Virus record (IMG/VR): IMGVR_UViG_3300005528_000136
Location: 1 to 31,890 of that record
DNA length: 31,890 nt
Reading direction: 5' to 3' (one strand)
Source of the DNA: a virus
A program made the position numbers and the translations under genes. This document shows positions 4,735 to 27,751 of this stretch, piece by piece; positions within the stretch are counted from its first letter, which is position 1; each line of letters begins with the position of its first letter. The notes beneath the pieces were generated by a model. The model saw only the letters and a program-made list of their open reading frames with translations, was not told the origin of the DNA and ran no database searches.

Positions 4735-5490
4735 CTATTTACTATTATCTAATATCCACTTCCTGTATTTACTAATTCTTGTGTGTCCAGACTCAGAACC
4801 GTATCTAGAATTGGATGCATTTTTATTTTTAGTATCCCATAATACACATGAGTGAATTCCTGCTAACTTGTTACCAATAAATAATCCACCTCCGCTATCA
4901 CCACTACCTATAAGAAACTCTAATGCTGTTTTATCCTTATCTCCTGGCTTTGATGGTGAACACATTAATAAATCTCTATCTATATAGTCTATCTTATTTG
5001 ATCCTGCTCGTTTTTTTTGATCAGAATTAACAGCGCCGCTACTAAATGTTCCTTTCATACCATATCCAGATAGTGTGCAGACTTTATCAACCTCATCCTC
5101 TGCTTCATATAAAGATGGATAAAAATCTAATTTGATAGGATCTTTTGAGTAACAAATTGCTATATCACTTTTACCAAAAACACTATCATCAAATTCTTTT
5201 GGCCACACACATTTTATAATCTCGTAATCCTTATCTTCTACTGTTACTTTAACAACTTTATAGTTCTGCACAACATGAGCCGCTGTTAAAATAATGTTTT
5301 CAGATATTACAACACAAGAACCACAGAACTTTGTATCATTTTGATAAGTTCCACATATTCTTCCTATGCTCTTGAATTCTTTTCCAAATTCCACATATTT
5401 AGTATCTGGTGTTTCTGGATCAATAGTTCCTGCAAGAGTTCCATTGATACTAAAACATAGCGTTAAAAATATTGCTAAGTATAATCTCAT
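4735..5490 (-). CDS. Secreted trypsin-like serine protease
   Basis: A 251-residue protein of the chymotrypsin/trypsin (S1) fold. Residues 1-20 form a Sec signal peptide (hydrophobic core LYLAIFLTLCFSI, likely cleavage after TLA). The catalytic triad is visible: His72 in ILTAAHVV, Asp109 in GKSDIAICY and Ser199 in GSGDSGGGLF. A Cys56-x-x-Cys59 pair before the His and other Cys residues suggest disulfides, which fits the periplasm or outside of the cell. An ideal GGAG site lies 7 bp before the ATG. Phage-encoded secreted S1 proteases are unusual; possible targets are host envelope proteins or a surface receptor (inference). Confidence 0.85.
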   Translation of the reverse strand: MRLYLAIFLTLCFSINGTLAGTIDPETPDTKYVEFGKEFKSIGRICGTYQNDTKFCGSCVVISENIILTAAHVVQNYKVVKVTVEDKDYEIIKCVWPKEFDDSVFGKSDIAICYSKDPIKLDFYPSLYEAEDEVDKVCTLSGYGMKGTFSSGAVNSDQKKRAGSNKIDYIDRDLLMCSPSKPGDKDKTALEFLIGSGDSGGGLFIGNKLAGIHSCVLWDTKNKNASNSRYGSESGHTRISKYRKWILDNSK

Positions 5491-5528: not shown

Positions 5529-6533
5529 TTAGAGTATTTGGGATGCTATCAAACAACCTTTAGCAACAGCGTGTAATGGATCTTTGGCGTGTCTGATTTC
5601 TTTGACTACTAGTGGAAAATTATTATCGCTTAGTTTTTGCGTAAACTGTTCAATATATCCATTAGCCTGAGATGTTCCTCCAGCAATAACAATTGTTAGT
5701 GGATCTTTAAACTTTGGTAAACTTTTATGTCCAGTAAGAGCAGCACTTAATTGCTTAGTAGTATAATCAATTAATCTTTCATAGTATGCTGAAACCGCTG
5801 CTAATATTGGATTATCGTTGGGTTCGCCAATTTTAAAACCACCCGCCTCCTTCTCTGCTTGAATTACACTATCGGGTTCTCCGGTGGCTACAGCACTCAT
5901 ACGATCAACCCAGTCGCCACTCTTGGTGGTACTAAAAACCACGGTTGGTTCACCATTAAGCATAACACAAATATTAGTCATTCCAGCACCACAACTAATA
6001 CCTATGCCAGTATAATCATTTGTATCTAATTCAGCATAGCACAACGCTTCTGCTTCATTAATAGATCGAGCATCATAACCAACTTCTTGTAAGATAGTCT
6101 TAATAACATCTTCATGATATCCAATATCAAAATCTTCATCTTCTTGATCTACAGGTTGTGCTGGAACACAATAAACCAATTTTTGACCGGCTTCAGAAGA
6201 TTGCCCGACTACTTCTTGTAGGATAAATGCTAATACTCTTTTAGCATCTTTTTCTTTTGCTGATACAACGCCCCTATACATTGGTCTTTTTGCTGTATCG
6301 TTTCTTTCTATTGCTTTTTCAATAGCATCTTTACCTAAGAGAATAAATGATCCATCATTATCTTTGATAAAAACCTTACCAGACAATCCTTTTTCGATCA
6401 TTTTTGTGGCTACTGGGGATGATGGCTTTATAATATAGAAAGCATCTCTAAAGTCTTTATATTCAATATTGCCGTTATTATCTTTTGCTTTTACAATATA
6501 ACTTGTACCAACATCAAGTCCGATTCCAGCCAT
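5529..6533 (-). CDS. Actin-like ATPase (ParM/Alp-like)
   Basis: A 334-residue actin/Hsp70-fold ATPase. Phosphate-1 loop GLDVGTS is at residues 5-11, the connect-1 segment INEAEALCYAEL near 158-169, phosphate-2 loop GIGISCGAGMTNICV at 176-190, and the adenosine motif IVIAGGTSQANG at 281-292. Length matches ParM and other bacterial or phage actins. It could form filaments that move or centre DNA or organise replication. The 102-residue membrane protein 3 bp upstream is a candidate partner. It is not an enzyme kinase of sugars: no sugar kinase motifs are visible. Confidence 0.8.
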   Translation of the reverse strand: MAGIGLDVGTSYIVKAKDNNGNIEYKDFRDAFYIIKPSSPVATKMIEKGLSGKVFIKDNDGSFILLGKDAIEKAIERNDTAKRPMYRGVVSAKEKDAKRVLAFILQEVVGQSSEAGQKLVYCVPAQPVDQEDEDFDIGYHEDVIKTILQEVGYDARSINEAEALCYAELDTNDYTGIGISCGAGMTNICVMLNGEPTVVFSTTKSGDWVDRMSAVATGEPDSVIQAEKEAGGFKIGEPNDNPILAAVSAYYERLIDYTTKQLSAALTGHKSLPKFKDPLTIVIAGGTSQANGYIEQFTQKLSDNNFPLVVKEIRHAKDPLHAVAKGCLIASQIL

Positions 6534-6536
6534 AAA

Positions 6537-6845
6537 TCACCCCTTTTTTAGTTGTTTTAGTTTGTCTACAGAAGAAGATATAGTGTCGGATGACTGTTTA
6601 ACTTCTCCAAGATTTTCGTATTTTTTCTCCATACCACCAGTTTTAATATCTAGTACAATCTTTTTATCATCAATACTTATCTTTTCTTTATTAGACTCAT
6701 TATTCTTTTGCAGAAAAGACTTGGGCTTTTCCAAATTATTATATACACTAGAACTTGTCCATAATTGTCCTAAAATTAGACCAAAAGCAAAACTAAAAAG
6801 ATTGAGTACGAGTAAGACTATGTCTAGTAAAAGTTCATTTTTCAT
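6537..6845 (-). CDS. Small membrane-anchored protein beside the actin-like gene
   Basis: A 102-residue protein with one N-terminal membrane span (LLLDIVLLVLNLFSFAFGL, about residues 5-25) and a charged, Lys/Ser-rich tail ending in DKLKQLKKG. It overlaps the RuvB-like gene by 4 bp (ATGA) and precedes the actin-like gene by 3 bp, so the three are co-translated. It could anchor filaments at the membrane, an inference from position only. Confidence 0.6.
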   Translation of the reverse strand: MKNELLLDIVLLVLNLFSFAFGLILGQLWTSSSVYNNLEKPKSFLQKNNESNKEKISIDDKKIVLDIKTGGMEKKYENLGEVKQSSDTISSSVDKLKQLKKG

Positions 6846-7738
6846 GGTCTTTTACCTATAACCCTACCCTTTTGGGTACGAATAACATAACCTTCTCTTA
6901 ATAAATATGGCTCTATACTATTCTCAATAGTTTCTATTGCTATACCAGTTAGTGATGAAATACTTTTTAGTCCTAATGGATTACCTTTGTTCTTAGTTAA
7001 TACATCAAGATATAATCTATCATACATATCTAATCCTCTATAGTCAATTCCCTGACTATCAAAAATAGTATTTACATCTACTGATGAACTTTCACAACTA
7101 ATAAAATTCTTATACCACAATAGTCTAGCATTTAAAATACGCGGAGTTCCCTTGCTTCTTTTAGCGATTTCTAGCAAGTGATCTTCTGATACTGATAGTC
7201 CGAGTTTTTCAGCATTCAATCCTGCTAGTTTGGCTAACTCATCGGGTGTATAAAAAGACAAATGCTCTTTGATTGTAAAACGATCATAAAACGGCTGACT
7301 TAAACTGCCTCCGCTAGTTGTAGCACCAACAAGAGTAAACATTGGCAGATCAATAGACTCTGGTTCAGATTCTAGGGTGATATGAAGAACAAAATCTTCC
7401 ATAATGGGATATAAGAATTCTTCTACTAATTTTGGTAGTCTATGGATTTCATCTATAAAAAGGACCGATCTTGGTTGTATGCTCATCAAATATGGTAGTA
7501 TACTTTTTACACTACGAATATTTGCAGCGTTCAGTGTGCGGATCGTTGTATCTAGTTCACTGGCAATAGAACTCGCTATAGTGGTCTTACCAAGGCCCGG
7601 TGGGCCGTCTATTAAAACGTGCGGCATCACGCCACCAGAGTTTAAACAGCCCCTCACCATGATCTTTAGGCGATTGATGACTTCTGATTGACCAATAATA
7701 TCATCAAATTTTGATGGCCTACTAATACTATTCGACAT
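6842..7738 (-). CDS. ruvB-like: RuvB-like Holliday junction branch migration ATPase
   Basis: A 298-residue AAA+ protein clearly related to RuvB. Walker A GPPGLGKT is at 45-52, Walker B LFIDEIH at 93-99, sensor 1 GATT at 138-141 and the arginine finger region GSLSQPFYDRF at 144-154, matching GSLTSPLRDRF of bacterial RuvB. The C-terminal winged helix ends EPYLLREGYVIRTQKGRV. It is shorter than the bacterial protein (about 335 residues), mostly at the N-terminus. In bacteria RuvB drives branch migration when loaded by RuvA. Here the upstream gene, overlapping by 11 bp, carries a RuvA domain III-like segment, so the pair may form a reduced RuvAB motor. Endonuclease VII elsewhere in the window could act as the resolvase. 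Confidence 0.92.
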   Translation of the reverse strand: MSNSISRPSKFDDIIGQSEVINRLKIMVRGCLNSGGVMPHVLIDGPPGLGKTTIASSIASELDTTIRTLNAANIRSVKSILPYLMSIQPRSVLFIDEIHRLPKLVEEFLYPIMEDFVLHITLESEPESIDLPMFTLVGATTSGGSLSQPFYDRFTIKEHLSFYTPDELAKLAGLNAEKLGLSVSEDHLLEIAKRSKGTPRILNARLLWYKNFISCESSSVDVNTIFDSQGIDYRGLDMYDRLYLDVLTKNKGNPLGLKSISSLTGIAIETIENSIEPYLLREGYVIRTQKGRVIGKRP

Positions 7739-8153
7739 TTTTAAGTGACTCCAAGGTTTGTTTGACTAATAATCCAATATCGTTTGTGGGACAATCGTTA
7801 TAACTTTTAGTTACTAAAGACTTTGCTTCGCTAACAGTAAAGCCAAATTTAACTAGACTGTTAACAACAGTATCTAATAAATCTTTTGGTATACTTTGAT
7901 CTGTTTTTGTAACTGGCTTAGATGTCGCGGAGACGGGCTTGCTTATTTTTATCGAATCGTATTTGAGTTTAAAGCCTGCTACTCTTTTAACTTGAAAGGT
8001 GTGGTTACAATCACACACTATTTTATAGTTTTTAGTTGATGCTTCTTTGAATGACAACCAATGAGGTTGACCACATTGTTTGCAGATATACTTTAGATGT
8101 ATATCATATTCAATCGGTTTCTGGTTTTTCTTTTTGCTCGTCTTTGTTGTCAT
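7728..8153 (-). CDS. Zinc ribbon fused to RuvA domain III-like helix bundle
   Basis: A 141-residue protein. Residues 21-55 form a zinc ribbon with Cys24-x-x-Cys27 and Cys47-x-Cys49. A flexible Ser/Thr/Lys/Pro linker covers about 68-88. Residues 90-138, DLLDTVVNSLVKFGFTVSEA followed by KSLVTKSYND and DIGLLVKQTLESL, match the three-helix domain III of RuvA (pattern VxALxxLGYxxxEA...LIxxALxxL), which in bacteria contacts RuvB. The OB-fold and HhH domains that grip the junction are absent. It overlaps the RuvB-like gene, supporting a physical partnership. The domain assignment is by eye and the function is inferred. Confidence 0.7.
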   Translation of the reverse strand: MTTKTSKKKNQKPIEYDIHLKYICKQCGQPHWLSFKEASTKNYKIVCDCNHTFQVKRVAGFKLKYDSIKISKPVSATSKPVTKTDQSIPKDLLDTVVNSLVKFGFTVSEAKSLVTKSYNDCPTNDIGLLVKQTLESLKNVE

Positions 8154-8532
8154 TTTTTATCCAAAAAACAAAGTCATTTGATTCATCATCATATGCACTT
8201 TCTACCAATCCTTTGTTAACTAGTGAATTTAACAGATTGCTTGCTAGTCTAGTATTAAGTTCTTCCAGAATAACCATATACTTTTCATCAGTCACTAAAT
8301 ATCTAGTATCTCCAGACACTTTATGCTTTTGTTTTATTAGAATGTCTTTTGCTATTATTGCTGACTCATCATAAGATAAATTAGAATCTAGTTCTTCTTG
8401 ATCTATTTCATTTAGTTCTGTAAATAAATCAGACTCGTCAATTTGTTTTTCTCCAAAGCATTTGAATACCAAACGTCTTGAAGCATTAATGAACTCATCA
8501 AAATCTGATATGATTAGATAGTCTTCTTTCAT
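8110..8532 (-). CDS. Acidic hypothetical protein with DD-N-FW C-terminal motif
   Basis: A 140-residue protein, strongly acidic in the middle, with a helical C-terminal part LNTRLASNLLNSLVNKGLVE followed by SAYDDESNDFVFWIKND. The last motif recurs in the 126-residue protein at 21338-21718 (CCWDDKLNEMIFWQKEP), suggesting a shared domain. It overlaps the zinc ribbon-RuvA protein by 44 bp. No Shine-Dalgarno site is obvious. Confidence 0.6.
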   Translation of the reverse strand: MKEDYLIISDFDEFINASRRLVFKCFGEKQIDESDLFTELNEIDQEELDSNLSYDESAIIAKDILIKQKHKVSGDTRYLVTDEKYMVILEELNTRLASNLLNSLVNKGLVESAYDDESNDFVFWIKNDNKDEQKEKPETD

Positions 8533-9019: not shown

Positions 9020-9892
9020 TCAATACTGATCGTCATCTTCCTCATCGTACTCATTGTAATCGTCCTCATCATCAACATCTTCATCAAACTGATCCCAGTA
9101 TGATTCATCAATATTGTAGTCATCATCATCCTCATAATCATCTTGCTCGTCATAACTAAAGTTAGACGAATAAAGAGGCTTGAGAAGTTCGCCTTGATAC
9201 TCTCCAACAACTACATATTGGCAAGTGCGAAGTTTCTCACAATTACAATCAGTAGGCACACTAACAACATCACGCGGATTAATCTTTACGATTACGATAC
9301 GATCACCACTCTCCACACTACCATAAGCAGCAACATAGTTTAATGCTCCAGCATGAAGTCCATCAGAGCAACCGCGAGAGCGATCATCATCAACCTTTGC
9401 TCGCTGCATTTTAACAGTGTTGCCTACACTATTATCAAATGCTCCACGATACTTGTCCTTATAATCATTCCTAACGGCCTTATACGCTAGGAAATGACCA
9501 TCCTCAGTGATAGGCAGATGCTCATGTTCAAGGAAATCATAAAGTTCCTTTTGACTCTGCATACTAGGATTCTCCATTACATTATGAAGAAACTTAACGA
9601 GAGGTTCAAAGGGTAGACCTTTACTCATAAACTCTAGAATTCTCTTACTGATACTACCATGAACAGTCTCGCCCTCATAAGTGACCTGACCATTCTTGAT
9701 CTCAACAAGACCATCGCTAAATGTAGCAACTGCTTTTTCTAGATCAACCACCTTTAGTAGTTCATCTGAAGTTGCAGTAGGAAGAATATCCAGAATCATT
9801 CTATAGTTAATATGATCTGGTAGAACCTGATAACTCTTGTTATTAAGTACCAGCGTCAGATTACCATCAACAAACATAAACGGAACGGCCAT
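9020..9892 (-). CDS. rIIB: rIIB-like protein
   Basis: A 290-residue relative of T4 rIIB. The diagnostic middle region runs FLAYKAVRNDYKDKYRGAFD, then NSVGNTVKMQRAKVDDDRSR and GCSDGLHAGALNYVAAYGS, which matches the rIIB core (LAYK...G.FDNS.G..V.M.R..VDD...CS.GLH). The last 50 or so residues are extremely rich in Asp, Glu and Tyr. The rIIA-like gene lies 36 bp upstream. In T4 the rII pair protects infection against lambda RexAB exclusion; the exact activity is unknown. AAGGAG lies 8 bp before the ATG. Confidence 0.88.
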   Translation of the reverse strand: MAVPFMFVDGNLTLVLNNKSYQVLPDHINYRMILDILPTATSDELLKVVDLEKAVATFSDGLVEIKNGQVTYEGETVHGSISKRILEFMSKGLPFEPLVKFLHNVMENPSMQSQKELYDFLEHEHLPITEDGHFLAYKAVRNDYKDKYRGAFDNSVGNTVKMQRAKVDDDRSRGCSDGLHAGALNYVAAYGSVESGDRIVIVKINPRDVVSVPTDCNCEKLRTCQYVVVGEYQGELLKPLYSSNFSYDEQDDYEDDDDYNIDESYWDQFDEDVDDEDDYNEYDEEDDDQY

Positions 9893-9928
9893 AATAAAAA
9901 CTCCTTAGTGTGTTTAGTACCTGTGAAA

Positions 9929-12589
9929 CTACTTAATCAAACTACTCAACTGAATCTTAAACAATTCTATCATACTATCATCCATACTCACAATCCAAGT
10001 GTTGTCTCTACTATAGTTATCTGTACTATTAGTAATAGGATTCTTGGATGTAATATTTCTGATACCAATCCGGTTGGGAGTGGTAGCCATAATATACTTG
10101 ATTGTCGGGTTGCTGTCAACCTGTTCTTTAATAATTTTTCTAAGTTCACTAGCCTTTGGCAGACTATGGCTACTCTTATTATCAGAAGAGATTAGTTTAG
10201 CCCAATTATCACCAGAACCATCCCTATATAGAGTATGCTTTAGCCAATTGTTAAGTTGGTTGAAAGCAACATTAGTTTTCTTAACCAATTCAGCATCAAC
10301 ACTATCAATACCAATATCAGCAAACAACTTATTCATATGATCATAATAATCGCTTTTCTTGAAGCCATTGATATTGTAAGTATGATGATGTACTGTCTCA
10401 GCAAAAAACTCCATAACTAGATAAGAATCAACAACCTTGACCAGACTATTGTTTTTAATATATTTGGCATAGTCTAGTCCAAAAAAGTTTAGAATCGTGT
10501 AGCAAAATCGTCCAAGAACATCATACTGATGATAGTAATTATAACTGGACGATTCACGATCTGAGAACTCTTTTTTGCAAAACTCTACGATACTATTAAA
10601 GCATGATACTGATTCAAACTTTGGTTTGAAAACATTTTGTAGTTTATCTTTGAAGAAATCGTTGAATGTAATCATGTTACGATCACCTTCTTCCACCATC
10701 TTCTTAGCAACACTACTCTTGATAGCATAAATCTTGGTCTTACCAAAAACTTCCTTGATAAAATCTGCTAACGAAGGTTCGTTAATCATACTGTGCAAAT
10801 CACAAATTTCTGGAAATCCCTCGTTCTGATTTACAGCATATCTAGTAATTGGCAAGTAAACAATAGTATCACTATCTTCAAAAGATTCAAGTTCGTCTTG
10901 ATCTAAAGTCTTTAGCAAAGAGGCGTCGTTATAGTCAACAAGTAGAGTGCCACTATTTTTAGATGCTCCGTAAATAAAGAATACATCTTGATCACTAACG
11001 CTTCCCTGACTAGAACGATTAGATGCTTTTCTAGGAGAATTGCTCTTGATCAAGTCCTTGAACTCAGAAATATTCTTTATATTTTCCTCACCAACATCCT
11101 TGATTAGAGACTCAAAACCCTTGTTTGATTCGTTAATATTCTTAGAATCGATCATCAAATAAGCATAGCAGTCATTCTCGTTGCAATAACGAATAGCAAT
11201 CTTTTTGGCAGTTTCTTCGCTCTTAACATCGCACACAAAGAATACTAGTTTACCAGTCTTACGACTACCGTAATAATAATCACCCTTGCCAGACAACGTA
11301 GCCAAGTGAATATGATTTGTCAGATAAACCATACGCCTAGACCTATAGCCAGCGGTTCTAAAATTAATAGCGTACAGATTCTTGTTGGCTCCAAACTTGT
11401 ACTCTAGATCATCACCGCTGTTAATATCATGCTCTACTCCCTTGCTGTCCTTCCACTTAGCACCAACTCCCCAACCACCAGCAAGATCATTAAGGGTATA
11501 ATAACTCTGTATTGCTTCAATCTTAGTTTTAGCACTAGCAATCTTTTTGCTGAATTCCTCTTTCATCTCCATGTAGATTTCTTGAGTCTTGTTACGCAGG
11601 GTACGGATAACTTCCTTAGTATACTGTAGACCCTCACGCGAAACATCCATCTCAAGTTGACCGATACCAAAATCAAGTTCAAGATAAAGATTCTGATTCG
11701 TAATCTCTGAAACAAAACTACGCCAGTTATCAATATCTGCCTTGCCAAATGTTCTATTCCACTTTTGAATATGATCTGGTTGCTCAGACTTTTGCTCTCC
11801 GATCAATTGTGACACAACTACTGGATAAGCAATATTACCCATGAGAGCCACAATACCGCTGTCAATATGATTATGAGCATTAGGAAAATGGCGAGAGTCA
11901 TTACTAAATCGACAAACTCTCCAACCTTCGCCACTAATCACAATATTCTTATGACTATAACTATGATCATTAATATAAGAGATAGTACCACCTTCAATGA
12001 TGGGCTTCATCTTAAAGTAATGAAAAATCCTCATGGACTTTAGACTAAACTCATGAAAATCGTGCTGCTTAACAGCAAAACTAATCTCTAGTCCATTAGG
12101 CTCATTTGTCTTAGAAATATCGAACAAATTGTGTGTGGGAACACCAGCATCATCAATAGACATTACATAAGTATACTTTTTACCATTGAAATAAGAACTA
12201 GTTGTAAAACTCTTAGTATAGGCAAAAGGACTCTTAGAACCTAGACCAAGACAACCAACAAAATCATTACTATCATTCTTGTTGCTTGCACCATAAGTGG
12301 TATATAGGTTCTCCATATCCTCTTGACTAAGACCAGTACCATAATCACGCACTGTAAAATTAGGATTAGCAGCAGTTGGCAACGTCACCTTAAAAGGATT
12401 CTTATTGCCCGCTGCAACATGAGAATCGTAGGCATTAGTAGACAGTTCACGAATAGGTGCTTGAATTTTGTCAGAATAAAGAGAGTCCGACAGAATCTTA
12501 AACATTTTACTCGTTTGTGCAATCGTAAAACCAGACGCACTACGAACACCAGAACTATGAGTATCAATAACCCGATCTGCCAACTTCAT
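9929..12589 (-). CDS. rIIA: rIIA-like protein with GHKL ATPase domain
   Basis: An 886-residue protein, larger than T4 rIIA (725). The N-terminal GHKL/HATPase domain shows the N-box IRELSTNAYDSH (residues 46-57), G1 box RDYGTGL (81-87) and G2 region CLGLGSKSPFAY (113-124), as in rIIA and related HSP90-type ATPases. A long helical and mixed C-terminal region has no clear domain. It is followed by the rIIB-like gene and is the first gene after the promoter at 12632-12659. GGAG stands 7 bp before the ATG. rIIA and rIIB are thought to work together at the membrane in T4. Confidence 0.92.
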   Translation of the reverse strand: MKLADRVIDTHSSGVRSASGFTIAQTSKMFKILSDSLYSDKIQAPIRELSTNAYDSHVAAGNKNPFKVTLPTAANPNFTVRDYGTGLSQEDMENLYTTYGASNKNDSNDFVGCLGLGSKSPFAYTKSFTTSSYFNGKKYTYVMSIDDAGVPTHNLFDISKTNEPNGLEISFAVKQHDFHEFSLKSMRIFHYFKMKPIIEGGTISYINDHSYSHKNIVISGEGWRVCRFSNDSRHFPNAHNHIDSGIVALMGNIAYPVVVSQLIGEQKSEQPDHIQKWNRTFGKADIDNWRSFVSEITNQNLYLELDFGIGQLEMDVSREGLQYTKEVIRTLRNKTQEIYMEMKEEFSKKIASAKTKIEAIQSYYTLNDLAGGWGVGAKWKDSKGVEHDINSGDDLEYKFGANKNLYAINFRTAGYRSRRMVYLTNHIHLATLSGKGDYYYGSRKTGKLVFFVCDVKSEETAKKIAIRYCNENDCYAYLMIDSKNINESNKGFESLIKDVGEENIKNISEFKDLIKSNSPRKASNRSSQGSVSDQDVFFIYGASKNSGTLLVDYNDASLLKTLDQDELESFEDSDTIVYLPITRYAVNQNEGFPEICDLHSMINEPSLADFIKEVFGKTKIYAIKSSVAKKMVEEGDRNMITFNDFFKDKLQNVFKPKFESVSCFNSIVEFCKKEFSDRESSSYNYYHQYDVLGRFCYTILNFFGLDYAKYIKNNSLVKVVDSYLVMEFFAETVHHHTYNINGFKKSDYYDHMNKLFADIGIDSVDAELVKKTNVAFNQLNNWLKHTLYRDGSGDNWAKLISSDNKSSHSLPKASELRKIIKEQVDSNPTIKYIMATTPNRIGIRNITSKNPITNSTDNYSRDNTWIVSMDDSMIELFKIQLSSLIK

Positions 12590-16213: not shown

Positions 16214-16342
16214 ATGAGACAAAAAGTATCTGGAATATATGCTATAAGAAAAATACTAAAAGAAGAAATTATATACAAATTAGTTAAGAAAAAGATTAAA
16301 AAAACCAAAGGAGGTTGGATACTTTATGATTCTAAACAATGA
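16214..16342 (+). CDS. Possible small basic protein, plus strand
   Basis: A 42-codon ORF, MRQKVSGIYAIRKILKEE then Lys-rich, ending GGWILYDSKQ. AAAGGA lies about 10 bp upstream. The opening SGIYAIRK looks like the GIY motif of GIY-YIG endonucleases, but YIG and the catalytic residues are absent. It ends 18 bp inside the convergent glycosylase-like gene. It may be a small gene or a remnant. Confidence 0.35.
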   Translation: MRQKVSGIYAIRKILKEEIIYKLVKKKIKKTKGGWILYDSKQ

Positions 16343-17028
16343 CTCCAATAGCGACAATTCTCTTGATTCTGTAAAGTATTCCAATACAAAGACCTCATGA
16401 TATAACAAGGCACATTTGTTCGACCGCAGTTAATACTCCAATGTCTTTCGATATTTTTGTACATATCCATGCCCTTTGGGCTTTTGTTATATTTTAGATT
16501 CTCGCAACCATAAAGCCTAAGCAAATGAACGTCCAAACACACTACTCTACATTCATTAGGATTTTGCATCTCGCAACTGAATGAGATTTTCGCTGCTCCT
16601 AATCCGCGAATTTTATTTATGATGCTATCACGCTTCTTAACATGATATTTCTTAGTGGTTATAATATAATCTTTAGGACTGGCCCAAAACTTGTCCTTAA
16701 AGTCCCAAATATATTCTGTACGATTATTATGAAGACCGACTCCACTGTTTTTGATTTTTTCAAGAAGTGATATTTTGTCATCAATCCATTCATCGAAGTT
16801 TTTAACAGCATTATAACCCTTAACATTACTTTCCCATGTAGTATGGACACTCATGAAAGCAAAAAGATACCGACGAAAAATATCGCTGTTATTTTGAGGT
16901 CTAATACTCTCCCAATAGTCTTTATATGCTACAACCTTATCTTTTGGAAAGGTTTTAAAAAACTCATCGGCCTTAGAGGTATTTATAACAATAGGCTCTT
17001 TAGCAGTTTTAACAGTGGTCACTTGCAT
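16324..17028 (-). CDS. HhH-GPD-like DNA glycosylase
   Basis: A 234-residue protein. The helix-hairpin-helix appears as INKIRGLGAAKISFSCEM, and a short distance later VVCLDVHLLRLYG holds the conserved Asp of the HhH-GPD superfamily (compare CIDTH in phage relatives). The Lys of bifunctional enzymes is not at the usual place, although K in GAAK is one residue off. Cys near the end (NCR..SHC) do not form a clear iron-sulfur pattern. It probably excises a damaged base in phage DNA. Start at the ATG 17026-17028 with GGAG 6 bp before it. Confidence 0.65.
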   Translation of the reverse strand: MQVTTVKTAKEPIVINTSKADEFFKTFPKDKVVAYKDYWESIRPQNNSDIFRRYLFAFMSVHTTWESNVKGYNAVKNFDEWIDDKISLLEKIKNSGVGLHNNRTEYIWDFKDKFWASPKDYIITTKKYHVKKRDSIINKIRGLGAAKISFSCEMQNPNECRVVCLDVHLLRLYGCENLKYNKSPKGMDMYKNIERHWSINCGRTNVPCYIMRSLYWNTLQNQENCRYWSHCLES

Positions 17029-17055
17029 CGTTTTCTCCAAAGTGGTTATAACAGC

Positions 17056-17757: not shown

Positions 17758-17862
17758 TTGACTGATCCAGTACAACAAAAACAGCGTTTCCATTATTCCA
17801 ATCTTCAGCCTTTATGGGCTACAGACAATATTAGTAAAGGTAATAAGATATTATCTATCTAA
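17758..17862 (+). pseudogene. C-terminal remnant of an HNH homing endonuclease
   Basis: On the plus strand the frame reads LTDPVQQKQRFHYSNLQPLW then ATDNISKGNKIL and a stop. This closely matches the end of the intact HNH protein at 25165-25818 (LTDPEQQRKCFHYSNLQPLW, AEDNLRKSDKIL). The N-terminal part and the HIDH catalytic segment are gone. It lies between the sulfotransferase-like start and the ligase end and overlaps the ligase stop region by 12 bp. Confidence 0.85.
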
Positions 17863-18984
17863 TTTCAGACAATTATTTCCATCAACCCTAGCAAAGTTAG
17901 GAGTACCTTTACCAGTTAATCCATTATAGAGAAATTCCACATTTTGACCGATCCACTTTTTTCTTTCTTTAAAGAATTGAGCCGCCTCTTCATAAGACCC
18001 CTTAAAACTAGCATCAAAAATCTTTCCGTTCCAATCCAAGGTAATAGTCTTTCCTGTACCACTCCAATTACCAGTTCCTTCTTTAATATCGACGATAATC
18101 GCTTCCTCTGAATCTTCCGGCTTAACCTTCAAAAGATTCTTACTTCTTTTATGTTCATAGCCCATATTAGAATATCTGAGCATGACACCCTCATGACCAT
18201 CATCAATAAAACTAGAATAGTGCTTGTCTAGATCTGATTCAGAATTAATGCTGAAGTCTTTGACAGGCATAACATATTTATACGAGTTTACTATGTTAGA
18301 ATCAATCCACTTCTTACGTTCCTTATAGCAACAGTCTTTGCTAATTCCAAAATCGTATCCATCATAAACATAATATCTAACAAGTTTTTCGCTACGATCC
18401 AAATCATCCTGAGAAATATTAACGGTGCGGCGAATTAACTTGCTAATTTCATTAAGTTGTTGACGAAGATCATTATTAAACAACTCACCGTCCAAAACCG
18501 CATCGGGATACATTTTAAAGAAAGAAGCCAAAGATTTTTCAATATGGGGGCAAGACAAATACTTTTCACCTTTTCTGGTAAATAGACCACTCTTGGTAGC
18601 CACACATCTCATGCCATTAAACTTGCACTGAAGAATATATTCTCCTTCAGAAAAATCAATCTTATTACTATAGTCCTTATACAACTTAGCCAACATAGGT
18701 TCGATATAACTCATATCGTCCACGCTATTAATATCGTCAAAATACCCCGTCTTTTTTTGCTTTTTATATTTAGCCTCAATTTCTTTAGTGGCCTGTTCAA
18801 CAGAGGATGTTTCGTTTTTCTTTCCCTGATTCTTACCTTCTGCAACAGTCCATTCGCTAGTAACCTGTTCGCCATTTTGTAGACCGGCGATTGTACGATA
18901 CTTAGAACCATTTTGCTCCATCTTCCAAATGCGAATATTACCCAAACTGTCTCTGGAATAAAGGGTTTCGTAATGCTTATTCAT
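17851..18984 (-). CDS. ATP-dependent DNA ligase with WGR-like N-terminus
   Basis: A 377-residue ligase. The adenylation motif is CKFNGMRC with Lys121 as nucleophile (KxNG rather than KxDG), motif III VLDGELF at 163-169, motif IV EGVMLR at 265-270 and motif V LLKVKP at 284-289, followed by an OB-fold (TGTGKTITLDWNGKIFDASF). Residues 1-80 (GNIRIWKMEQNGSKY, SEWTVAEGKNQGKKN, ATKEIEAKYKKQKKTGY) match a WGR-type domain, which may bind DNA ends. Seals nicks in replication or repair. The last codons overlap the HNH remnant. GGAG lies 9 bp before the ATG. Confidence 0.9.
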   Translation of the reverse strand: MNKHYETLYSRDSLGNIRIWKMEQNGSKYRTIAGLQNGEQVTSEWTVAEGKNQGKKNETSSVEQATKEIEAKYKKQKKTGYFDDINSVDDMSYIEPMLAKLYKDYSNKIDFSEGEYILQCKFNGMRCVATKSGLFTRKGEKYLSCPHIEKSLASFFKMYPDAVLDGELFNNDLRQQLNEISKLIRRTVNISQDDLDRSEKLVRYYVYDGYDFGISKDCCYKERKKWIDSNIVNSYKYVMPVKDFSINSESDLDKHYSSFIDDGHEGVMLRYSNMGYEHKRSKNLLKVKPEDSEEAIIVDIKEGTGNWSGTGKTITLDWNGKIFDASFKGSYEEAAQFFKERKKWIGQNVEFLYNGLTGKGTPNFARVDGNNCLKLDR

Positions 18985-19046: not shown

Positions 19047-19391
19047 CTATTGGCTATTGGGTCTTGAGAGAAAATAATTCATAGCATTCACAATGCCTTG
19101 AAGATTATCTCCTAATTTTCCTATGCCAGTATTGCATCTATCACAAATCCAGCCCCTAAAACTATCATCACTATGGTCGTGATCCAAACACCATTTTAGT
19201 GGAACTTTTCCACAACATTCACAAACTTCTGGTTTTGGTGGTGCTTTTTTATGTAACTTGCCTCTAACTTTTGAATGTTCCTTAACACATTTTTTACATC
19301 GTGTATCTAGTTTATCTTTGTATAAACTGTGTTTGGGAAAACTCTTTCGATTTTTTCTTTTACCACAGTATATACAAATTTTTCTAGGCAT
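19047..19391 (-). CDS. Recombination endonuclease VII-like protein
   Basis: A 114-residue relative of T4 endonuclease VII (gp49), which cuts Holliday junctions and branched DNA. The core KWCLDHDHSDDSFRGWICDR then CNTGIGKLGDN (residues 67-95) holds the DHDH metal residues and zinc Cys57/60 and Cys83/86. An extra N-terminal ribbon (Cys6xxCys9, Cys32xxCys35) is present, as in some phage HNH proteins. The C-terminal dimerisation part of T4 gp49 is missing, so this is short. Follows the tmRNA; no Shine-Dalgarno site is evident. Confidence 0.85.
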   Translation of the reverse strand: MPRKICIYCGKRKNRKSFPKHSLYKDKLDTRCKKCVKEHSKVRGKLHKKAPPKPEVCECCGKVPLKWCLDHDHSDDSFRGWICDRCNTGIGKLGDNLQGIVNAMNYFLSRPNSQ

Positions 19392-20667: not shown

Positions 20668-20696
20668 ATTCTACACTATCGACCAACACCTGTCAA
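20668..20696 (-). promoter_or_regulatory. Sigma-70-type promoter for tRNA-Ile, CGATA motif
   Basis: Minus strand TTGACA, 17-bp spacer, TAGAAT; the spacer holds GGTCGATAGT. It overlaps the stop of the SPOUT methyltransferase gene and lies 14 bp from the mature tRNA 5' end. Confidence 0.75.
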
Positions 20697-21233
20697 CTCT
20701 TTAGTTTTGCTCTCAACAAAATTTCTGTATACACCCATAACTATCCCACTAGTTGTTCCAACATTTAGTGATCGTACACTTCCATAATTAGGAATAGTTA
20801 GAATAATATTTGCTCTGTCTAGAATAATATTTGATAATCCTTTGTTTTCTTCTCCAAATATAAATATGGGTTGCTTATTATCCTCAAAGTTATATTCAAA
20901 AAGATTCACTGTTTTATCAGAATACTCTGGAATATTATTTTCAATAGCAATAATGCTTCGACCACTTAGTTGTAGCAAAAAAGATTCTTCATCTTTGTGA
21001 TGATACATAGGAGTATAGTGGTGAGTGCCTACGCTTCCTCTTTTATCCCACTTCTTTTTACCAACATAATGCACACTTCTAAAGCCAAAGAAATTTGCAT
21101 TACGCACCATTGTGCTAAGATTAAAATCACCACCAATATTAATCATAGCCACACTAGCAGGAATACTTTTGCTATGGCAATAATGACCAATATCCTTAAT
21201 ACTAAGATTTTTTAAACTATCCAGTACGTTCAT
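20676..21233 (-). CDS. SPOUT (TrmH/SpoU) RNA 2'-O-methyltransferase
   Basis: A 185-residue knotted SPOUT methyltransferase. Motif 1 appears as GGDFNLSTMVRNANFFGF, motif 2 as IFIFGEENKGLS and motif 3 as IPNYGSVRSLNVGTTSGIVM. These are the three SpoU/TrmH motifs that bind SAM and catalyse ribose methylation. Substrate may be tRNA (Gm18 type) or rRNA. It precedes tRNA-Ile, so action on phage tRNAs is an attractive inference. The preceding small gene overlaps its start. Confidence 0.88.
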   Translation of the reverse strand: MNVLDSLKNLSIKDIGHYCHSKSIPASVAMINIGGDFNLSTMVRNANFFGFRSVHYVGKKKWDKRGSVGTHHYTPMYHHKDEESFLLQLSGRSIIAIENNIPEYSDKTVNLFEYNFEDNKQPIFIFGEENKGLSNIILDRANIILTIPNYGSVRSLNVGTTSGIVMGVYRNFVESKTKELTGVGR

Positions 21234-25164: not shown

Positions 25165-25818
25165 ATGAAAAAATGTCATATGTGTCTATTAGAAAAAGAA
25201 GATAATGAATTTAATAAAAGAAGATGCAATCAGTGTAAATTATGCGAAAAAAAGTGGAAAAAAGAATGGCATCAAAGAAATAAAAAAAGATTAAATAAAA
25301 AGGCAAAAATATATAATAAAAAAAATTCAGAAAAAATAAAAGCAAATAGAAAAATATACTATATAAAAAATAAAGAACATATAGATACTCAAAATAAATT
25401 AAATAGAGAAAAAAATAGAGAATATTTTAACAAGAAATCAAGAGAATATTATCATAAAAATAAAAAACATATTCATAAAAAACAAAAGTTATACTTATCT
25501 AGTAATAAAGAAGCAAAAATTAGACATAATTTGAGAGTAAGAATTAATCATGTTTTACAAGGCAAAATAAAATCTGGTGGAACTATTGAATTGTTGGGGT
25601 GTACAGCAGAATTTTTGGCTATGCACATCGAACAACAGTTTAAAGATGGCATGAGTTGGGAAAATTATGGTAGAAATGGATGGCATATAGATCATATAAT
25701 TCCTTGTTCTAGTTTTGATTTAACTGATCCAGAACAACAGAGAAAATGTTTCCATTACTCTAATCTGCAACCACTATGGGCTGAAGATAATTTGCGTAAG
25801 TCTGATAAGATTCTATAA
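25165..25818 (+). CDS. HNH homing endonuclease
   Basis: A 217-residue protein starting MKKCHMCLLEKEDNEF. N-terminal CxxC pairs, then a very Lys/Asn-rich linker (repeats of 'NKK...Y.KN'), then the nuclease part LLGCTAEFLAMHIEQQFKDG, MSWENYGRNGWHIDHIIPCS with HIDH, and CFHYSNLQPLWAEDNLRKSD. The ATG at 25165-25167 has GGAGG 7 bp upstream; the open frame continues further upstream with no site. Its last 59 bp overlap the convergent UV endonuclease gene. The plus-strand codons are strongly A-rich, unlike the neighbours. Confidence 0.9.
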   Translation: MKKCHMCLLEKEDNEFNKRRCNQCKLCEKKWKKEWHQRNKKRLNKKAKIYNKKNSEKIKANRKIYYIKNKEHIDTQNKLNREKNREYFNKKSREYYHKNKKHIHKKQKLYLSSNKEAKIRHNLRVRINHVLQGKIKSGGTIELLGCTAEFLAMHIEQQFKDGMSWENYGRNGWHIDHIIPCSSFDLTDPEQQRKCFHYSNLQPLWAEDNLRKSDKIL

Positions 25819-26713
25819 ATTTTTGAATAGTCAAATCCTTTAATTTATATTCATAATCAACATCCACTTCCCGATTAAATAGTTCTTCGTGTACATCATA
25901 AACATAATCACTATGAGCCTTATCTAAGGCGTGATCTCTACCGTTACTAAAATGAAACAACGGCTTAAAGGTTTGCCAAGTGTCAACACAACCCTGTGCA
26001 GCATCATCCGTTGTTAAATTTTCTGGATTATTAAGTCTAAAGTGATGAGAATCGTATGTAATAGGAATCTTAGTAATTGGATAGAAAATATCTAATAGTT
26101 TAGCAACACTCCAAGCCGCTTGGCGATCATCATTCTCTACTACTAACCTACGTTGACAATTTTCGTCAAGACGATGGAAGTTCTTGAGAAATCTTTCACT
26201 AATTTCTTCTCTAGTACCGTCTTTACTATTTTGAATATGAATATTGATAGGAGTATTATGATCAGTACTAAGACCAAAACGATCCATTAGGCTACTCATT
26301 AGATTTAATTCTGTAATAGTTTTTTCAACCACTTTTTCATTTGTAGTAGCCAACACATTAAACTGATCTGGATGTGCGGAAATTCTTACGCCAGTATTTT
26401 TAATCGTTTCCGCAATAGTATCAAAAACATCTTGAATATCGTCATGATTTGGTAGATCGGTTAAGTCCACATTTGCTTGGTCATAACTAATCAATGGCAT
26501 AAGATCGCTACTAAGACGATAGCACCAGTTGTTTTCTGCACAATATTTGATAATTTCATTAGTAGCAATCATATTATTGTGGATACGATCACCTAGAATT
26601 TCTAACGCTTCTTTTCTAGGCAAACTAGAAAATCTCTTGTAGGTCATAGTTTGAAAACTAAAACCCTGTTCTTTGAGTTTGAGGCTAATACAACAAAGGC
26701 CAAATCTGTTCAT
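25760..26713 (-). CDS. uvsE: UV damage endonuclease UvsE/UvdE
   Basis: A 317-residue TIM-barrel endonuclease for UV lesions. The start MNRFGLCCISLKLKEQGFSF is typical, with CYRLSSDLMPLISYDQ, VRISAHPDQFNVL, INIHIQNSKDGTREE, RRLVVENDDR and PITYDSHHFRL carrying the metal-binding His, Glu and Asp residues of the family. It incises 5' of pyrimidine dimers and 6-4 products. AAGGAG lies 5 bp before the ATG 26711-26713. The final 20 or so codons lie antisense to the HNH C-terminus. Confidence 0.9.
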   Translation of the reverse strand: MNRFGLCCISLKLKEQGFSFQTMTYKRFSSLPRKEALEILGDRIHNNMIATNEIIKYCAENNWCYRLSSDLMPLISYDQANVDLTDLPNHDDIQDVFDTIAETIKNTGVRISAHPDQFNVLATTNEKVVEKTITELNLMSSLMDRFGLSTDHNTPINIHIQNSKDGTREEISERFLKNFHRLDENCQRRLVVENDDRQAAWSVAKLLDIFYPITKIPITYDSHHFRLNNPENLTTDDAAQGCVDTWQTFKPLFHFSNGRDHALDKAHSDYVYDVHEELFNREVDVDYEYKLKDLTIQKFIESYQTYANYLQPIVVAD

Positions 26714-26731
26714 AGAGTCTCCTTGATTTCC

Positions 26732-26759
26732 ATTATACAATGGTATCGGCCAAAGTCAA
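26732..26759 (-). promoter_or_regulatory. Sigma-70-type promoter with CCGATAC motif
   Basis: Minus strand TTGACT, 16-bp spacer, TATAAT; GCCGATACC lies in the spacer. About 18 bp before the uvsE ATG. Confidence 0.75.
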
Positions 26760-27097: not shown

Positions 27098-27751
27098 TTA
27101 GATATTCCAATCTTTATCAAAACCACCTAGTGCTTCTGATATTGTTGGAAATTGACCACAAAAAATTCTTTTACATTCTTTAGCAATCAAGATATGTTCT
27201 TTTTGAGTGCCATTCTTTTCTCTTAGTGCTATATATGTAATCCATGATCTTAATGTGCCACTCATAAAAAGTCGAGTAGGAGTTGATAGTGGTAATACAA
27301 ATCTAGCACATTCTTTGGCAATACCATCAGCAATCATTCCATCATAAATAGCCTTTGCTTTAGCAAAATGTTCTCTAATTTGTAGATTCCACTTATAAAT
27401 TGTTTCCTCTTGAATGTCGTCAATACTATTTTGTCTATTCTTAGTATCTTGACGACGCAATTCAAATACCGGAATTTCTTCACTAAGTAAAGTAGTATCA
27501 GCATATCGCTGGCTAAATTCTTGAAAATTAAAACTACGATGACGTAAAATTTGTGCTGCTAGTCCTCTGGTAGTATTAATCTCAAGATTTAGAGTAGCCA
27601 TTTCAAATATGCTCCAGTGTTTATGATCTATACAATACTTCAATAGTTTAGCGTAGTTCTCATTATTTTGTCCTATTGGATTTGACACTCTAGCACAATA
27701 AGAGATTAATTTTTCTGCATCGGGTGTTACACTAATTAGTTTTACGTTCAT
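27098..27751 (-). CDS. thyX: FAD-dependent thymidylate synthase
   Basis: A 217-residue ThyX, which makes dTMP from dUMP with methylene-tetrahydrofolate and FAD. The signature RHRSFNFQEFS (Arg70-His71-Arg72 ... Ser80, RHR-x7-S) is intact, with HWSIFEMATLNLEI before it and CARFVLPLSTPTRLFMSGTL after it, holding the usual Arg and Asn-equivalent contacts. Length matches the family. It fits the deaminase-like enzyme. AAGGA lies upstream of the ATG. Confidence 0.95.
   Translation of the reverse strand: MNVKLISVTPDAEKLISYCARVSNPIGQNNENYAKLLKYCIDHKHWSIFEMATLNLEINTTRGLAAQILRHRSFNFQEFSQRYADTTLLSEEIPVFELRRQDTKNRQNSIDDIQEETIYKWNLQIREHFAKAKAIYDGMIADGIAKECARFVLPLSTPTRLFMSGTLRSWITYIALREKNGTQKEHILIAKECKRIFCGQFPTISEALGGFDKDWNI

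Follow-up and report, generated by a model that had tools for sequence, protein, structure and literature searches.

A phage RuvB encoded beside a protein that joins a zinc-ribbon-like domain to RuvA domain III

In bacterial RuvAB, the junction is held by domains I and II of RuvA, whilst domain III binds a hairpin of RuvB, keeps RuvB tethered to the junction and serves as its nucleotide exchange factor (PMC9477746, PMC2628435); the RuvA tetramer, in the current model, guides the junction and also gives RuvB the fulcrum for its pulling (PMC9477746). Phages have branch-migration enzymes of their own, UvsW and T5 D10 being known examples (PMC5180179), and bacterial-type junction processing is encoded by jumbo phages in the form of RuvC-type resolvases (PMC7824862). 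Here we describe a locus in the IMG/VR virus record IMGVR_UViG_3300005528_000136 (positions 1 to 31,890; this whole stretch is the window referred to below), in which a gene for a RuvB-family motor is overlapped by the gene for a 141-residue partner protein. The explanation that we favour, and that we hold to be reasonably probable, is that the two form a reduced, phage-specific RuvAB, i.e. that RuvB is a branch-migration motor and that the partner, as a minimal RuvA, tethers and stimulates it.

The gene at 6842..7738 (minus strand) encodes an AAA+ protein of 298 residues with N, lid and C-terminal winged-helix domains, which by its sequence is a genuine RuvB. Pfam recovers RuvB_N (3.6e-45), the RuvB AAA lid (2.7e-8) and RuvB_C (1.9e-18), and the closest PDB chains are those of bacterial RuvB (E 3e-64). 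Among 67 distinct phage RuvBs the Walker A/B residues K51, T52, D96 and E97, the arginine finger R153 and the sensor 2 arginine R200 are all invariant (67/67), and the trans-acting Glu-Asp pair is nearly so (E114 in 67/67, D115 in 66/67). The RuvB_C winged helix with its basic DNA hairpin (RTxKGR) is present as well, R287 being found in 66 and K290 and R292 in all 67 of the proteins. The first-pass annotation had described a 298-residue RuvB with all main motifs, including the arginine finger, and on this point the coordinates of the open reading frame (ORF), Pfam, the PDB matches and the conservation in 66-67 of 67 sequences agree. A scan for relatives returned some 400 stretches that encode relatives of RuvB, the best 80 of which are at least 70% identical, and in a tree the phage RuvBs make up one clade that is separate from eight bacterial-type RuvBs (support 100/100). 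The RuvBs of public phage records were also considered as relatives; they served only as bacterial references because the best is no more than 42% identical and because several of those inspected have host-like chromosomal surroundings, in which ruvB is accompanied by a gene of RuvA length or one annotated as ruvA. The "RuvB helicase-like" gp202 of PaBG was set aside, as it is a 221-kDa virion protein and not comparable.

The partner gene (7728..8153, minus strand) ends in a three-helix part that resembles RuvA domain III (residues 88-141; 7731..7892, minus strand). Taken alone, the 141-residue protein of the window has no significant Pfam match and no match to domain III in Pfam or PHROGs; a family profile was therefore needed, and the assignment rests on the family, of which 54 members were aligned. 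With this profile the top match among all PDB sequences is RuvA domain III in the RuvA-RuvB complex of T. thermophilus (1ixs, E 6e-4), and further RuvA domain III chains rank beneath it; the profile of the domain III part by itself gives weaker matches (best E 0.009), with RuvA still first and unrelated chains close. RuvA_C is also the Pfam family that is matched by most members (9/54, best 0.0027). The AlphaFold2 model has C-terminal helices at residues 90-102, 107-120 and 126-138, and a Foldseek search of the PDB with this model places RuvA at all of ranks 1-6 (probability 0.92-0.99), the alignment to 1ixs_A having a root-mean-square deviation of 1.8 A over 48 columns and a TM score of 0.76 by target length. 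In the case of hhalign, the family aligns to nine bacterial domain III sequences with a probability of 96.3% over 48 colinear columns, and to full-length RuvA at its C-terminus only; a chance match was rejected on the basis of 100 column-shuffled controls, which reach at most 5.5%. Finally, residues that matter for RuvB function are recovered. Alanine mutants of E. coli RuvA L167 and L170 abolish RuvB activity in vivo (PMC2628435), and these positions align with L100 of the partner (Leu in 49/54) and with F103 (Tyr in 48/54, aromatic in 50/54), respectively, whilst G171 and E176 fall on invariant residues and the counterpart of R196 is a lysine (53/54). From these five lines of evidence (PDB profile, Pfam, AlphaFold with Foldseek, hhalign and the residues for RuvB function) we conclude that the C-terminus of the partner is a homologue of RuvA domain III. 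The earlier placement of this domain at residues 90-138 coincides with the span of the predicted helices, and the structural similarity that was proposed as its check is present. It had further been claimed that the protein is without domains I and II of RuvA, and indeed Pfam finds neither the OB fold of domain I (RuvA_N) nor the helix-hairpin-helix (HhH) of domain II in the 141-residue protein; RuvA_N is moreover found in none of 15 related phage records (67-238 kb, completeness unknown) that were surveyed for gene content, the control genomes being positive.

In the place of domains I and II the partner has a zinc-ribbon-like part (residues 10-65; 7959..8126, minus strand), as follows from the family alignment, residue counts and AlphaFold2 strands. 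Four cysteines (C24, C27, C47 and C49) are invariant in 54/54 members and form the pattern C-x2/4-C plus C-x-C, so that the second knuckle is CxC and not CxxC; P13 and Y22 are invariant too, and H31 and W32 nearly so. AlphaFold2 predicts with confidence a beta-rich N-domain at residues 11-60 (predicted local distance difference test score, pLDDT, 92-97), with strands 19-23, 30-34, 44-46 and 52-54 in a ribbon-like fold. The zinc ribbon that had been reported in the overlapping upstream gene is thus seen again in its two cysteine knuckles and its fold, and from the four cysteines alone the domain is predicted to bind zinc. It is connected to domain III by a linker that is predicted to be disordered (residues 73-85) and that varies between 5 and 54 residues across the family. 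The zinc-ribbon half is basic (mean charge +8.7) and the domain III half is not (-1.2).

The stop of the partner gene and the start of ruvB overlap by 11 nucleotides (7728..7738, minus strand), which suggests translational coupling, and in 86 relatives the spacing between the two genes lies between -46 and +6 nucleotides. The first-pass annotation had asked for a survey of other phages, and the pairing proves widespread: the partner lies directly upstream in 60 of 74 distinct RuvBs in the sets that were fetched by RuvB only, and in 86 of 100 loci in sets that were partly chosen by the partner. The locus therefore shares with bacterial RuvAB the domain set and catalytic residues of RuvB, a flexibly linked C-terminus of the domain III type and the adjacency of the genes with the partner upstream of ruvB, but differs from it in that the phage partner has a zinc-ribbon-like domain instead of the OB and HhH domains, in that no RuvC was found and in that the partner is sometimes absent. 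As a separate observation, the partner also occurs on one GTDB genome contig; because it is surrounded there by phage genes like those of the window, this looks like a phage contig within a metagenome-assembled genome of Chitinophagia.

In bacteria, RuvA domain III is received by the presensor-1 hairpin and helix alpha3 of RuvB (PMC9477746). This hairpin (residues 117-132 of the window RuvB; 7343..7390, minus strand, by alignment of the phage RuvBs) is present in the phage proteins, and in most of them falls short of the bacterial hairpin by about 4 residues, the placement of the gap within it being an alignment choice. The position of E. coli Ile148 holds Glu, Gln or Thr in 67/67 phage RuvBs versus Ile, Val or Leu in the eight bacterial-type sequences, a further difference from bacterial RuvAB, and the Ile150-equivalent is Ile in all 67. 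Taken together with the tyrosine that domain III of the partner has at the L170 position, the altered hairpin leads us to infer a re-tuned pair. Nine RuvBs (L022, L051, L052, L055, L056, L070, L071, L072 and L074) have a 5-residue charged insertion in the hairpin, and all nine also have the partner. A quicker evolution of the hairpin in RuvBs without a partner is weakly suggested by a label-shuffle fraction of 0.037, which is uncorrected for the tree. The same residues bear on the idea that the 141-residue protein is a takeover factor, which would capture host RuvB or block host RuvA and so spare phage junctions from cleavage or migration by host RuvABC, with the phage RuvB acting alone. A domain III that lacks the junction-binding domains could well be dominant negative, and the phages encode a resolvase of their own; yet its gene overlaps that of the phage's own RuvB, with which it forms a pair, and a tyrosine opposite the altered phage hairpin better fits a phage-phage pair, and we regard such a takeover as quite improbable.

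Several points weigh against a reduced RuvAB. The Foldseek E-values of the RuvA matches are around 0.5, as expected for 50 residues, i.e. they exceed 0.1 because the domain is small, and three-helix UBA-like folds resemble each other. The contact between RuvB and the partner is predicted from homology, and the docking mode cannot simply be copied from bacteria, because the hairpin is usually shorter and the Ile148-equivalent has become Glu, Gln or Thr; likewise, DNA binding or recruitment by the zinc ribbon is putative. Furthermore, the partner has been lost repeatedly and RuvB kept, with 8-9 label changes on the RuvB tree, at least 4 of which are forced by well-supported branches, and records of 229 and 192 kb are among those that lack it. 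Relocation of the partner was considered, and it was not found elsewhere in the records of these phages. Given these repeated losses, RuvB can persist without the partner, and the partner-less lineages may be helped by host RuvA or may use a RuvB that works without a partner. This leads to the alternative that the phage RuvB works mainly with host RuvA and that the zinc-ribbon protein acts as an optional regulator, which competes for or supplements the docking of domain III. The retention of RuvB in lineages in whose records no other RuvA or domain III was found agrees with that alternative (a second domain III protein was found in none of the 15 related records), as does the known cross-species hetero-complementation of RuvAB (PMC9477746). 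It is at odds with the usually shortened hairpin that would face the host domain III, the Ile148-equivalent being charged or polar in all phages, and with a partner that is found in about 80% of the family and whose gene overlaps or abuts ruvB, and we deem it unlikely. A bolder reading, to which we give a rather low probability, is that the RuvB motor branch-migrates without any RuvA junction clamp, in which case domain III of the zinc-ribbon adaptor would suffice for loading and driving the ring and the lineages without adaptor would need no RuvA-type partner at all.

The gene content of the related records provides the setting in which a reduced RuvAB would operate. A RecA-like recombinase gene is present in 13/15 and endonuclease VII in 10/15 of them, and neither RuvC nor Helicase_C (superfamily 2 helicases; all controls positive) was found in any of the 15. 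In the window, a candidate Holliday junction resolvase of the endonuclease VII type lies at 19047..19391 (minus strand; Pfam Endonuclease_7 5e-10, phrog_2633 2e-20), near the gene of an ATP-dependent DNA ligase at 17851..18984 (minus strand; Pfam DNA_ligase_A_M 3e-19, phrog_114 7e-59). A search for the clamp-loader family retrieved only RuvB itself in 14/15 records, and one very weak additional match in the fifteenth, which raises the question whether RuvB was recruited to load the clamp or the helicase for a phage polymerase of the DNA polymerase III (PolIII) type, with the zinc-ribbon protein as adaptor. The 238-kb relative G002 does encode DnaB and PolIII alpha, the latter over two ORFs, as well as a Toprim protein. 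Nevertheless, RuvB-specific features have been kept, namely the presensor-1 hairpin and the winged helix of RuvB_C that bears the DNA hairpin, and the partner resembles RuvA domain III rather than a clamp-loader subunit, which makes a loader function very improbable. In this 238-kb relative PolIII alpha appears to be split between L106:1507-3372 (PHP and NTPase domain) and L106:4294-5913 (finger domain and HHH).

On the reading of a reduced RuvAB, the phage would have kept the motor and its regulator and have swapped the junction clamp for a zinc ribbon. RuvB, with its family and catalytic residues conserved, would act as the branch-migration motor on junctions; the domain III-like C-terminus of the partner, by homology, would dock on the presensor-1 hairpin, tether the RuvB ring and promote nucleotide exchange, as bacterial domain III does. 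The basic zinc-ribbon head on its flexible linker would take the place of the RuvA tetramer in recruitment, and may bind either branched DNA or a recombination or replication protein. The pair would come into play once the RecA-like recombinase has acted, ahead of or alongside endonuclease VII, and would thereby fill the role of the helicases UvsW in T4 and D10 in T5. The likeness to these systems thus lies in phage branch migration as the probable role of the pair and, for T4, in the co-occurrence of a recombinase and endonuclease VII; the difference is that UvsW is a RecG-like helicase, whereas the present phages, in which no Helicase_C was found, encode a RuvB-family AAA+ ring motor. With respect to the jumbo phages that have RuvC-type resolvases, the phages described here have RuvB without RuvC. 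Kinship to T4-like phages was examined and rejected: among 25 T4 proteins, strong matches came from rIIA and the ligase only; in addition there was a weak DnaB-type match, and gp44 matched RuvB itself. Homologues of rIIA and rIIB lie just upstream in the window (9020-12589, minus strand), and the 238-kb relative, which has the same order, is otherwise not T4-like.

The conserved gene order around the pair is rIIA - rIIB - g8537 - 140-residue gene - partner - ruvB. The conserved 140-residue gene (8110..8532, minus strand; known from synteny, AlphaFold2 and weak Foldseek matches) is overlapped by the partner gene by 22-91 nucleotides in 84/86 loci, and is the immediate upstream neighbour of ruvB in loci that have lost the partner. 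Its product is modelled with a pLDDT of 87 and has a weak Foldseek likeness to MarR-like winged helices, and is possibly such a protein; Foldseek against viral models was uninformative. Downstream of ruvB the related loci often have a small membrane-type gene and then a volactin-type actin. In the window this actin-family protein (5529-6533, minus strand; Pfam Volactin 3.2e-62) is, as in most related loci, near ruvB; Volactin has been described in Haloferax, and a paper on it does not mention phage or virus. A serine protease of the trypsin family that has a signal-like segment at its N-terminus (4735-5490, minus strand) is kept in many related phages. The window is also rich in repair and nucleic-acid enzymes, namely a UvdE endonuclease (25760-26740), an Ogg-type HhH glycosylase (16324-17040), ThyX (27098-27751) and a SpoU methylase (20676-21233), all on the minus strand.

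In the open-access papers that were searched, neither a protein that joins a zinc ribbon to RuvA domain III nor the present phage RuvB was found to be described, and the novelty of the pairing is therefore provisional. The phages appear to have split the roles of RuvA naturally, in that domain III was kept and the junction clamp dropped. As a natural experiment, they can show which RuvA parts are really required by a branch-migration motor, and the sufficiency of domain III alone for driving RuvB becomes directly testable. For the phages themselves, which are big, uncultured and members of a large family that is well represented in metagenomes, the pair points to branch migration by a system that is not of the UvsW kind.
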